A DNA stretch of 41,586 bases from Chlorobiota bacterium (GTDB lineage Bacteria > Bacteroidota > Bacteroidia > Bacteroidales > VadinHA17), in assembly GCA_013152085.1 (NCBI GenBank), contig JAADHC010000060.1:1-41586 (forward strand), written 5' to 3'. Positions 2,971 through 6,287 of the stretch are shown in pieces. The notes beneath the pieces were generated by a model. The model did no database searches. It had not been told where the DNA came from and was given only the letters and a program-made list of their open reading frames with translations. A program made the translations under genes and the position numbers. The stretch's first letter is position 1. Each line of letters begins with the position of its first letter.

Positions 2971-4629
2971 TTATCTTGGTCTGACCCCGGTACCGGGTCC
3001 ACGCACCACACGTCCCGGCAGGGCACCGGTATGTTTACCGTCTTTCAGCACCTGCTGACCGTTGACAAAAACATCAACCATCCCCACGGCATATTGATGG
3101 GGGCTGGTAAAGGTGGCCTTGTCAGCGATCTTTTCCGGATCGAACACCACCACATCGGCATAATATCCCGGTTTCAGCGAACCCCTTTTATATAATTTCA
3201 GGTTAGATGCAGGGAATGAAGTCAGGCGACGTACAGCTTCTTTAAGCGGGATCACCTTCTCCTCCCGGACATATTTTCCGAGCAGGCGGGCAAAGGAGCC
3301 GTAAGCCCGGGGATGGGGATTGGTTTTAAGGAAGACCCCCTCCGGAGCCAGTGATCCGGCATCCGAACAAAAACTCATCCAGGGCAGGGCGATTTTTTTC
3401 CGTATGTTGTCTTCGGACATCGTAAAAAATACCGTACCGATGCGGCTATCGTCATCCACGATCAGGTCGAGGACGGTATTTTTGAGGGAGGTTCCCCGGA
3501 GGCGGGCAACCTCGGCCAGGCTTTTTCCGGTGAGATATTTCAGCGAGTCGTTGGCGAACCCCACCAGCAAAATACTGTCCGGGGAACAGGGGAATTTGAT
3601 CTTATCCAGGATCTTCTTCCTGGTTTCAGGGTCTTTGATCCTGCCAACCTCAACATCATGACCGCCCTCTCTTGCCCATGTGGGCTCCACGGTATTCAAC
3701 CCAGTGGCCGAAGCGGGATAATTGTACATGTCGGCAGTAATCCGGAGGCCTTCTTTCCGGGCCTGCTCAATTTTTTTAATGGCCGTATCCAGTTTCGTCC
3801 AGTTTTTCCTGCCGCCGGCTTTAAAGTGGTAAATCTCCGAGCGGCATCCGGATTCACGGGCAATACGGATCAGTTCATCCACCGCTTGCAGCAAATGGTC
3901 ATTTTCATGACGGATATGAGAAATATAGAGCCCGTCATATTCTGCAACGACTTTAGCCAGTTCGATAAGCTCCCCGGTAGAGGCAAAAGTTCCCGGAATA
4001 TAGATCAGGGCGGAAGCCATCCCCACAGCGCCTTCCTCCATGGCCTGACGGACAAGGGATTTCATCTGCTCCATCTCCTCAGGTGTTGCCGGCCGGTTGT
4101 TCAGGCCGATCACATATTCCCGAACGGATCCCTGACCGATAAACGAAGCCACATTGGGTGAGATCCCCTTTTTCTCCAGGAAACGGAGATACCCGTCCAG
4201 GGTTGTCCAGGGAACATTATATTTAATATCATCCTGATCTTCCACCATTTCTTTTTTCATTTTTTCATTCAGTGGCCCCATGGATGAGCCCTCTCCCATC
4301 ACCTCCAATGTGACACCCTGGCGGATGTCGCTTTGCGAGCGGCCGTCTTGGATCAGGGATTCGGTTGCCCAGCTCAGCATGTTGATAAAGCCGGGAGCTA
4401 CGGCAAGCCCGGAGGCATCCATTTCCTGCACACCTTTTTTATTCCCCAGGTCACCGATCGCAGCAATGGTGTCACCCGAAATAGCCAGGTCGGCTTTGTA
4501 AGGTGTTCCCCCACTCCCGTCGTAGATCATGCCGTTGCGGATGATCACATCGTAATCCGGTGAAGAACAAGAGAAAAGAAAACCCAGCAACACCGGGAGC
4601 AGAAAAACAATTTGCCTGAATGATTTCAT
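2971..4629 (-). CDS. Amidohydrolase lipoprotein, D-aminoacylase family
   Basis: A 552-residue protein. I start it at the ATG at 4629, which gives a clean lipoprotein signal peptide with lipobox LFSC (Cys21). An upstream in-frame ATG at 4662 would lie before the predicted transcription start. The fold begins YDVIIRNGMIYDGSGG and continues to a C-terminal PGYYADVVVFDPEKI, both typical of the D-aminoacylase / N-acyl-D-amino-acid deacylase branch of amidohydrolases. Probable ligands are His238 (YISHIRH), His268 (EIYHFKAGG) and Asp423 (FCSDAG). The usual HxH after PGFI is replaced by NMLSW (residues 83-87), and the Cys found in the loop after GVT in characterised D-aminoacylases appears as Glu (VMGEGSS). 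The metal site is therefore unusual. The cell location would be the periplasm or the outer-membrane surface. The true substrate is unknown. Confidence 0.85.
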   Translation of the reverse strand: MKSFRQIVFLLPVLLGFLFSCSSPDYDVIIRNGMIYDGSGGTPYKADLAISGDTIAAIGDLGNKKGVQEMDASGLAVAPGFINMLSWATESLIQDGRSQSDIRQGVTLEVMGEGSSMGPLNEKMKKEMVEDQDDIKYNVPWTTLDGYLRFLEKKGISPNVASFIGQGSVREYVIGLNNRPATPEEMEQMKSLVRQAMEEGAVGMASALIYIPGTFASTGELIELAKVVAEYDGLYISHIRHENDHLLQAVDELIRIARESGCRSEIYHFKAGGRKNWTKLDTAIKKIEQARKEGLRITADMYNYPASATGLNTVEPTWAREGGHDVEVGRIKDPETRKKILDKIKFPCSPDSILLVGFANDSLKYLTGKSLAEVARLRGTSLKNTVLDLIVDDDSRIGTVFFTMSEDNIRKKIALPWMSFCSDAGSLAPEGVFLKTNPHPRAYGSFARLLGKYVREEKVIPLKEAVRRLTSFPASNLKLYKRGSLKPGYYADVVVFDPEKIADKATFTSPHQYAVGMVDVFVNGQQVLKDGKHTGALPGRVVRGPGTGVRPR

Positions 4630-4659
4630 GATATCCGGAATTAAGAGACAGATGACCGG

Positions 4660-4690
4660 CAAAATAGAAATAATGTTTCAGGATTACAAA
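4660..4690 (-). promoter_or_regulatory. Promoter of amidohydrolase lipoprotein gene
   Basis: On the minus strand GTTTG (about 4690-4687) is followed after 19 bp by CTATTTTG (4667-4660), which contains TATTTTG, a near match to the -7 element. The start of transcription would be near 4654, about 25 nt before the ATG at 4629; this supports that start over the ATG at 4662. Confidence 0.45.
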
Positions 4691-5098
4691 CAAAACAGAA
4701 CGGTATCGGTAATAAAATATTAAGGAGAAACCAAAATAAAACCATACAACCGGACTCACCGTGCCTGTCATCAGGTACGAATCACATTTAGCATGATTTC
4801 TAATGTTTTTGTAACTCCTGCTCACAGATCATATTTGCAGTTTCAATACATCGGCTCTCCCCGAATTCCTTTTTACCTCTAATGTGTGAAATTGTTAACA
4901 ATCATCCAGGGGAGGTGTCGTGCTTTCTTCTGCAATTCCGTACGTATGAAAGCAAAATGGGCAGAAAAGTTGCAGAACCGGAAATTTCTTTCGTTGCAAT
5001 ATGTTTCGTATTCCGGGCTGACGGCCGTGGTCAGTGATCTTTTGCCATATATTAACATCCCTGATAATGTGCGCCGTTCATTTGAGCGGAGCACAGTA
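4691..5098. other. Gene-poor stretch with one promoter-like site and a doubtful small ORF
   Basis: TTTG at 4808-4811, 18 bp, then CATATTTG at 4830-4837 (one mismatch to TAnnTTTG) would start a plus-strand transcript near 4842. Two short overlapping frames follow: an ATG frame 4882-5037 (51 residues, MCEIVNNHPGEVSC...) and a GTG frame 4886-5107 (73 residues). Neither resembles a known family, and they overlap in different phases, so at most one is real. The transcript would run into the 22-bp repeat array. Confidence 0.3.
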
Positions 5099-5186
5099 TC
5101 TACGTAGATAAATTTATTTAACTACGTAATTAATTATAAGAAACTACGTAGATAATTTTTATTAACTACGTAGTTAACTTTTCATA
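5099..5186. repeat. Four-unit 22-bp tandem array with TACGTA core
   Basis: TACGTA occurs at 5101, 5123, 5145 and 5167, exactly 22 bp apart. Three of the four units (1, 3 and 4) contain the 8-bp palindrome CTACGTAG; unit 2 has CTACGTAA. Each core is followed by about 14 bp of nearly pure A/T. A fifth unit beginning at 5187 keeps only ACT. The even spacing, close to two helical turns, would put every core on the same face of DNA, as in iterons or clustered operators. There are no unique spacers, so it is not a CRISPR array. Confidence 0.85.
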
Positions 5187-5319
5187 ACTGATTTAAATAC
5201 AAAACTCTCACAAGATCATCTTATTGTGCCACTATGTAATATTTCTTTCCGGGAAGGGATAATTCCGGCAAAAAAGACACTCTTCAGACACCTAATAAAA
5301 ATCAAGTAATTTATATTAT

Positions 5320-5338
5320 ACGACTCCGCCGGAGTCGT
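5320..5338. repeat. Palindromic hairpin ACGACTCC-GCC-GGAGTCGT
   Basis: Perfect 8-bp arms with a 3-nt loop. It shares the GACTCC...GGAGTC core with a second hairpin 32 bp downstream, so the pair looks like a small dispersed (REP-like) repeat family rather than a terminator; there is no T-run. Confidence 0.75.
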
Positions 5339-5369
5339 GGATCGGTAACATAGTCAATTTACAATAATC

Positions 5370-5386
5370 TGACTCCTACGGAGTCA
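5370..5386. repeat. Palindromic hairpin TGACTCC-TAC-GGAGTCA
   Basis: Perfect 7-bp arms around a TAC loop, the second copy of the GACTCC...GGAGTC core. The rest of the gap to 5549 shows no gene or further motif. Confidence 0.7.
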
Positions 5387-5549
5387 TCCTACGCTCATTA
5401 CGGCCCAGGATTCAGGTGTTTTTTATCTTTTTCATGCGAAGGCCTTTATATTGGCAGAAGAATATTATAACGAAAAATGATTGTTTCAACTTTTTCAATC
5501 CGGTACAGCCAGGCTCAATGTTCTATTTTAGTTCAATCCGCTCTGTGCT

Positions 5550-6287
5550 TTATTGAAAATACAGGGTAATTCCGATCCGGGTAGGGCCCATGATATGGTT
5601 GGAATAATTCCATGTCCAGCCAGGATAAAACAGATCTTTAATAAGAGGTCTGGCCACCGGTGAACCAAAGTCCCCGAAGAACGTCAGGGTCATATCCATA
5701 ATTTTAAAATCAACCCCGGCAAGCAGGGAATATCCGAACAGATACCCTTCGTCATTCCCATATGTTTTGTCTTTCTTGCTGTTAGCATAGTTAGCATTCC
5801 ACACATAATATCCCAGGGCAGCCCCAATCCATGGGGACATTTTTTCCCCATGTAAGAAATATTTTCCGCCAATACGGAATCCTGTCGACTGCATATAAAA
5901 ATTAACGTCCGTCTGAAACGGGCCTGCATTCATTGCTCCCGCATCGGTAAGGGTATATTGTTCGACAGTCCAGATACTTTGAGCATAGCCTCCCTGATCC
6001 ACCTGATTAATTTTATAGGTATAGAAGTTTGCATCGAAAAACAGGCCAACAGCATTTCCGAATTTCCGGTCAATGATCAACCCGAAACCATAGCTTGAAT
6101 TAAAGGAAACGGAATTTTTCAGGGCTGTGGTTGCAACCCCCATGGGCAAAACACCGGAAAATCCTATATGGCATTTTTTACCTTTTTCCGCCACATCCGC
6201 ACTTTCCTGTGCCGGGGACTTCATTGTCACTGCCAACAGTGCAATGATGGAGAACAAAAATGTAAAACGATTCATGGTATTATTCAT
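5550..6287 (-). CDS. Outer-membrane beta-barrel protein (paralogue of the one at 27033)
   Basis: A 245-residue protein with a signal peptide ending near SPAQ (MNRFTFLFSIIALLAVTMKS... after an alternative ATG four codons in). The rest is alternating-hydrophobic strands with glycines at turns and the aromatic C-terminus ITLYFQ, typical of a small outer-membrane barrel. The segment DFGSPVARPLIKDLFYPGW closely parallels DVGSPLAKPLRIDNLF in the protein at 27033-27851, and both end with a similar RxGxxxxxF strand, so they are paralogues. No enzymatic motif is present and the function is unknown. It lies 114 bp after the end of the zinc dehydrogenase gene on the same strand and may or may not share its transcript. 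Confidence 0.75.
   Translation of the reverse strand: MNNTMNRFTFLFSIIALLAVTMKSPAQESADVAEKGKKCHIGFSGVLPMGVATTALKNSVSFNSSYGFGLIIDRKFGNAVGLFFDANFYTYKINQVDQGGYAQSIWTVEQYTLTDAGAMNAGPFQTDVNFYMQSTGFRIGGKYFLHGEKMSPWIGAALGYYVWNANYANSKKDKTYGNDEGYLFGYSLLAGVDFKIMDMTLTFFGDFGSPVARPLIKDLFYPGWTWNYSNHIMGPTRIGITLYFQ

Follow-up and report, generated by a model that had tools for sequence, protein, structure and literature searches.

Arrays of a TACGTA palindrome at fixed steps in three genera of one Bacteroidales family: probable docking sites for a candidate DNA-binding protein

Results

A four-site array in a long intergenic region

The stretch of DNA analysed here (the window, 41,586 nucleotides) sits on contig 70 of a genome of 3.38 Mb in 75 contigs, referred to below as G000. 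Two predicted genes in tandem are separated by 914 bp, in agreement with the preliminary description of a region of about 0.9 kb with few or no genes, and within this interval lies an array of four palindromic sites. The features are as follows.

2971-4635, minus strand: predicted amidohydrolase gene (Pfam); the start codon is uncertain, the codon-bias caller of this analysis giving 4629
4636..5549, no strand: 914-bp intergenic region around the array, with flanking predicted genes in tandem, both minus
5097..5176, no strand: complete array, four palindromic sites with arms, 22-bp steps
5097..5110, no strand: site 1, TATCTACGTAGATA, matching the genome consensus TAWCTACGTAGWTA fully
5119..5132, no strand: site 2, TAACTACGTAATTA, with one departure (CTACGTAA)
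5141..5154, no strand: site 3, AAACTACGTAGATA, left arm with one departure
5163..5176, no strand: site 4, TAACTACGTAGTTA, matching the consensus fully
5550-6287, minus strand: gene for a 245-amino-acid protein without a Pfam match

The TACGTA cores start at 5101, 5123, 5145 and 5167 (steps of 22, 22 and 22 bp). Three of them are part of the octamer CTACGTAG (5100-5107, 5144-5151 and 5166-5173) and one of CTACGTAA (5122-5129), just as had been described, and the AT richness noted for the linkers also holds (97.6% A+T). Four TACGTA at exact 22-bp steps are expected 1.3e-11 times in the window under an order-2 Markov model; the hexamer itself is not over-represented there (6 seen, 5.5 expected). 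Rfam and tRNA scans of the window found nothing. A promoter-like site at 4808-4837 had been thought to point at the array; this received no support when 4600-5560 was scanned for sigma-70 promoters, the 4 hits (3.2 +/- 1.8 in shuffled sequence) all lying elsewhere, with the Bacteroidota consensus outside the scan. Promoters of Bacteroidota follow another consensus than sigma-70.

Other repeats were seen around the array. A 108-bp stretch beside it (4978-5085) recurs, inverted and at 74% identity, in the flank of array L049, and judging by this match is probably a second dispersed intergenic repeat. Two hairpins of the form GACTCC-N3-GGAGTC, 49 bp apart (5322-5336 and 5371-5385), may represent another intergenic repeat family. 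The left flank CACAGTAT (5092-5099 in the window) is common to four G000 arrays (that of the window, L058, L160 and L178), with GCACAGTAT in two of them; three of the four extend to GATTTTA(A/G)CACAGTAT, which would point to a longer common element or a common origin.

An array family with a symmetric 14-bp site

The fetched loci of G000 hold 37 arrays on 31 of the 75 contigs, a set that leaves out one wider pair on contig 54. By step, 12 of the arrays have 22 bp, 10 have 14 bp only, 14 have 12 bp and one has 15 bp. Those of the 22-bp class (n=12) are made of three or four units; two of them mix steps of 22 and 14 bp, and three have one step of 23 or 27 bp. Helical phasing at 22 bp, first taken as the defining feature, does not define the family, in which steps of 12 and 14 bp occur about as often. 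Nor does the spread over 31 contigs fit the iteron reading first offered, and a plasmid iteron cluster, that is, one cluster beside a rep gene, was rejected on the same count. The preliminary description had also held that an array without other copies and absent in close relatives would indicate a private minisatellite; copies are present both in G000 and in relatives (see below), which rules that candidate out. No predicted gene wholly contains any of the 37 arrays, and one array overlaps a gene end, gene positions here being those of our simple codon-bias caller and not of an annotation.

In the linkers of the 22-bp type in G000 (n=24), T at +2 and A at -2 are invariant (24 of 24 each), A occupies +3 in 22 linkers and T occupies -3 in 18; the eight bases in the middle are almost exclusively A or T and otherwise free. 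The site is a 14-bp palindrome, TAWCTACGTAGWTA; in terms of this site, neighbours share a TA at the 12-bp step, abut at 14 bp and are separated by an 8-bp gap at 22 bp. Across the family, an element consists of two to five copies of CTACGTAG at fixed centre-to-centre steps; the octamer, the step and two to three arm bases are conserved, and the linkers and outer arms vary. Because the linker positions adjacent to the octamer are fixed and the middle ones free, the arrays look like symmetric DNA recognition with fixed geometries, unlike a copied repeat unit. As would be expected of cooperatively bound operators or of chromosome-organising sites, they combine a repeated palindrome, fixed spacing and a symmetric consensus.

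Distribution in relatives

The pattern TACGTA-N(5-9)-TACGTA matches 33 times in G000, 19-61 times per g13 genome (in all seven tested) and 61 times in G004 (g5), as against 0-1 in every one of 15 genomes from elsewhere in the family (ten genera), of which G003, G013 and G023 are 68-83% complete; the reversed-pattern control gives 0-5. The matches listed, which span all or part of seven genomes (G000, G004, G012, G022, G060, G061 and G062, with G029 and G034 outside), are mostly CTACGTAG at a 12-bp step, with a few other TACGTA pairs. The element family occurs in three genera (g1, g13 and g5) of one Bacteroidales family. The 12-bp step is found in all three, with 14 and 22 bp also in G000. Most of the listed g13 arrays are pairs whose spacer is rich in GC (GCGC for 22 of the 42 fetched G022 pairs), those of G062 (g13) often have three units, and G004 arrays have two to five units at exactly 12 bp.

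A loose pattern of two TACGTA at 22 +/- 1 bp matches in 22 of 117 genomes of the family. Beyond G000, however, the matches listed include CTACGTAG arrays of the 22-bp type only in G012 and G022, one in each, next to a GH2 gene (on the opposite side in G012 is a SelR gene), and by this count the 22-bp type appears nearly private to the genome of the window (cf. also 3/60). A wide scan of genome contigs for three CTACGTA at steps of 22 +/- 1 bp returned 85 stretches, two of them known g13 arrays; a wide taxonomic spread was rejected, as most of the 85 resemble, by eye, minisatellites with conserved linkers. By eye, none of the 10 stretches from a viral scan resembles the window array, and phage records gave no match.

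Retention between species and the array as a unit

To judge retention, 38 G012 arrays were queried against 1.146 Mb of tiled G022 sequence, and 28 are without an orthologue in the tiled part. The array is kept in 8 of the 10 testable orthologous regions, the two misses being the in-gene array L208 and L181, at a contig end. In 23 orthologous G012/G022 pairs identity (gapped, +/-120 bp, array included) ranges from 51 to 87%. Twenty of these pairs (without L059, which is of the 22-bp type, and without L186 and L193, which are coding, but with L214, which overlaps a gene end) were compared base by base: the first 12 bases beyond the array are the same in 256 of 480 comparisons made without gaps (7 to 15 of 20 per position), and the spacers agree in 48 of 80 letters. 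The position is thus kept between the two species while the surroundings diverge; the retention count is the fairer test of this, because the aligned pairs were picked for an array in both.

What is maintained is the multi-site array. Of the 42 CTACGTAG in this 1.146 Mb of G022, 37 have a further copy within 40 bp (at step 12 for 34 of them, at step 22 for 3), and the five lone copies are near chance level, the Markov expectation for the word being 1.7-3.8.

Between genera, three cases have an array beside the same gene and on the same side, with a different unit number or step:

GPx / DUF5698 intergenic array: L333 (g5) and L189 (g13) share both neighbours, L229 one
Array upstream of a CvpA-like gene: L344 (g5); L194 and L221 (g13)
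Array upstream of an ECF sigma gene: L058 (g1); L201 and L245 (g13)

Several other neighbours common to different genera have the array on the opposite side of the gene, which indicates that array positions also turn over.

Gene neighbourhoods

For every one of the 37 G000 arrays one neighbour or more was scanned with Pfam, which revealed mixed functions and no common pathway. The neighbours include methionyl-tRNA synthetase, a fumarase-type lyase, a Clp-type ATPase, the aconitase family, SmpB, RecG and a RecQ-type helicase, as well as glycosidases, transporters and peptidases. The families that recur, twice, are M14 peptidase, UPF0004/radical SAM, PD40, short-chain dehydrogenase and DsbD-like.

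Orientation was counted for arrays between two genes, excluding those without a flanking gene, with other steps or overlapping genes. In G000 (n=35), 12 arrays are between convergent genes, 19 between tandem and 4 between divergent ones. Convergent placement is commoner than among array-free regions in G000 (12/35 vs 17/157, p = 0.0013), and the preference reaches significance there only (G012: 7/32 vs 13/98, p = 0.26); the lower share of divergent regions in G000 (4/35 vs 37/157) is not significant (p = 0.17). Of 37 arrays between tandem genes, G000 and G012 taken together, 26 lie nearer the stop of the preceding gene than the start of the following one (p = 0.02). Some g13 arrays are located inside genes.

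By eye, arrays of G000, G004, G012 and G022 are often near contig ends, with six places in G004 within ~130 bp, a judgement that suggests repeats or population variants at the arrays.

Hairpins and terminators

The proximity to stop codons, together with a predicted fold of the window array into two hairpins (-23 kcal/mol), is consistent with a possible though unlikely alternative in which the arrays act as hairpins, in RNA or in extruded DNA, and serve as a REP-like 3'-end element or a factor-dependent terminator, with two CTACGTAG forming the stem and the spacer the loop. Further signs of such hairpins come from g13. The outer arms pair around the axis of the pair for a mean extension of 2.17 in G012, compared with 0.86 when permuted (n=36), and of 2.49 compared with 1.04 in G022 (n=41; p ~0.0003 in each); omitting the duplicated L200 and the in-gene arrays, the values are 1.81 vs 0.86 (n=31) and 2.47 vs 1.09 (n=36), with p ~0.0002. 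The two genomes are related, and these are not two independent tests. In about 5 of 20 orthologous G012/G022 pairs the spacers match better when one is reverse-complemented; among the five spacers with little direct identity, four then agree in at least 3 of their 4 bases (permutation p = 0.004). Arms of single palindromes in g13 show no significant covariation.

Arm pairing and spacer flips of this kind would be expected of inverted repeats that flip or become perfected by template switching. Template switching during replication can yield flipped loops and perfected arms without selection, which speaks against the hairpin reading. Stem covariation is not seen in the other genera: the 22-bp linkers of G000 have 85 pairs against 92.9 expected (p = 0.94), and in the fetched G004 arrays there are 72, with 70.1 expected (p = 0.37). 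A universal hairpin was rejected on these grounds, covariation being present in g13. Moreover, three-unit arrays are common and one has five units, and some arrays lie between divergent genes.

An array scores as a loose terminator at 14 of 43 array-facing gene ends in G000, where ordinary terminators are rarer (2/43 vs 14/126); beside g13 arrays they are not rarer (5/29 vs 3/77 in G012, 7/42 vs 7/85 in G022), and a stricter caller finds too few terminators for a comparison. U-tracts have no consistent orientation, either in tandem G000 arrays (T4 downstream in 6/19, A4 upstream in 6/19) or in G012 (3/18 and 4/18). An intrinsic terminator was rejected because there is no oriented U-tract in G000 and G012 and no substitution for terminators in g13, the case of G000 being less clear; a weak terminator-like signal is present in G000 and none in g13.

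Regulon, mobile insertion and minisatellite

That the arrays serve as operators of an ordinary transcription factor, its regulon being large and of mixed function, is improbable. The arrays that precede an ECF sigma gene (g1, g13) or a CvpA-like gene (g5, g13) are in favour of such a regulon, and some arrays are within promoter distance. However, the 12 convergent G000 arrays have no promoter facing them and only 4 of 35 are divergent (subject to the p value given above), and the neighbours lack a common pathway, even though several Pfam families come up twice.

A tiny mobile insertion (~20-24 bp), or a target-site hot spot for a transposon that duplicates CTACGTAG, we regard as quite improbable, although several loci call it to mind. 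In G012, an array lies within an mnmA-type gene (L193:4016-4035), its orthologue L246 in G022 has an array too, and the codons of the array fall at an 8-residue insertion relative to MnmA proteins of solved structure (three alignments displayed of four PDB hits); an origin of this array by short insertion is possible from these alignments. By contrast, the LuxC-like in-gene array of G022 shows no gap relative to the G000 orthologue. In UvrC of g13 the array is in the C-terminal tail. Apart from two short matches, the 37 G000 arrays have unique flanks, and the flanks in g13 are nearly unique (in G012 one 30-bp match besides the L200 duplication, in G022 one 316-bp match), which together with stable positions speaks against mobility; flanks of G004 arrays do have other repeats in common.

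Nor do Y1 transposases (PF01797, a family wider than RAYT) track the arrays. Matches occur in 19 of 25 genomes: there are none in the array-rich G004, G029 and G061, 11 each in the array-free G013 and G023, and 2-6 each in the arrayed G000, G012, G022, G060, G062 and G034 (3 in G000). A RAYT-driven REP was rejected because of this lack of co-occurrence.

Two contig ends of G004, L330 (end) and L347 (start), carry the same 15-17 bp sequence directly abutting CTACGTAG, a pattern resembling what an inserted transposon would leave in an array if CTACGTAG were its 8-bp duplication. At the end of contig 80 of G012 (L200) an array pair forms an inverted duplication around a perfect palindrome, either an assembly artefact or a real large palindrome.

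A neutral minisatellite is hardly credible: Tandem Repeats Finder does list the window array as a 22-bp tandem repeat, but palindrome and step are conserved and linkers are not, and there are many arrays, several steps and retention between species.

Discussion

Candidate cooperative sites for a DNA-binding protein

The arrays are probably docking sites for a candidate DNA-binding protein, and the array of the window, as a member of the family, is very probably functional. More specifically, we give an about even chance to their being cooperative sites of a putative lineage-specific oligomeric protein with a chromosome-wide rather than a pathway role, a proposal drawn from sequence. Each palindrome would be bound by a dimer of one sequence-specific protein, and neighbouring dimers would touch and bind cooperatively, which would explain both the fixed steps and the missing lone sites. 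Such a protein would more likely organise, bridge or mark the chromosome than regulate one pathway, a role favoured because the arrays adjoin genes of mixed function and are often near gene ends. A more elaborate version, to which we hold only tentatively, is a lineage-restricted chromosome-organising system in which an oligomeric protein would use tens of multi-palindrome sites for nucleation and in which geometry would have changed (12 bp, then also 14 and 22) while the octamer was kept. Whatever weight is left beyond the five readings considered here belongs to an explanation that we have not thought of.

That the array is protein-bound rather than the result of drift was already proposed in the preliminary description. 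For the family, the case against drift has become stronger, with 37 arrays, quantised steps, a symmetric 14-bp consensus, retention in 8/10 regions between sister species and no clear excess of lone sites; the binding itself we infer. Several observations do not sit easily with a binding protein. The arm covariation and spacer flips of g13 would not be predicted by plain DNA binding, and 12 bp is no whole number of helical turns. The convergent preference is significant in G000 only, and some g13 arrays are in genes. There are also the terminator-like scores in G000 and the repeats shared by G004 flanks. Nevertheless, a sequence-specific DNA-binding protein, itself putative, fits all three genera better than a hairpin, and the hairpin property seen in g13 may be incidental or a further role.

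A family of cis-elements of exact geometry, with tens of sites kept between species, offers a testable route to a new DNA-binding protein of Bacteroidota, for which, to our knowledge, few nucleoid or segregation factors are known. The three step classes within one genome are a natural experiment on how much change of geometry cooperative binding tolerates.

Comparison with known systems

Chromosomal sites such as parS, Noc, SlmA and matS are, like the arrays, short palindromes dispersed along the chromosome, next to genes with no relation to one another. They are usually single sites, whereas the arrays contain 2-5 sites at fixed steps and have another octamer. MetJ operators, which are cooperatively bound tandem 8-bp palindromes with an ACGT core, resemble the arrays in having several such palindromes with the same core; Met boxes, however, are contiguous and belong to one pathway, and the arrays have a spacer and occur at tens of loci of mixed function.

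REPs are stem-loops with an unpaired GTAG or CGTC tag, the GTAG REPs being tied to RAYTs, and like the arrays they are intergenic, palindromic and mostly between tandem and convergent genes (PMC3733652). The arrays share this placement near gene ends; they differ from REPs as described there in lacking a tagged hairpin and a link to Y1 transposases and in having a strictly spaced unit. Of the features of GTAG REPs and REPINs, the arrays have neither the conserved 20-40 bp stem-loop with unpaired GTAG nor an associated RAYT (tested as PF01797).

The BrickBuilt MITE of Porphyromonas gingivalis is characterised by a 23-nt repeat, a leader, a tail and terminal inverted repeats (PMC4596501). Both it and the arrays are intergenic repeat arrays in Bacteroidales; in the arrays, by contrast with that description, it is mainly palindrome and step that are conserved and flanks are nearly all unique. 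No common leader, tail or terminal inverted repeats are apparent in the 37 G000 flanks, with their two short matches, while G004 flanks share repeats.

HIP1 of cyanobacteria, as presented in PMC4390886, is a highly iterated and highly frequent 8-bp palindrome and, like CTACGTAG, is spread over the genome; lone CTACGTAG, however, is near chance, and here the array is the unit. No description of CTACGTAG arrays was found in the titles and abstract starts of the open-licence papers listed.

Finally, TACGTA arrays with 22-23 bp steps and palindromic arms are also seen in Azobacteroides, Parabacteroides and Prevotella (L113, L116, L076, L095, L133 and L135); these are possibly an analogous system, the resemblance being one of likeness only.
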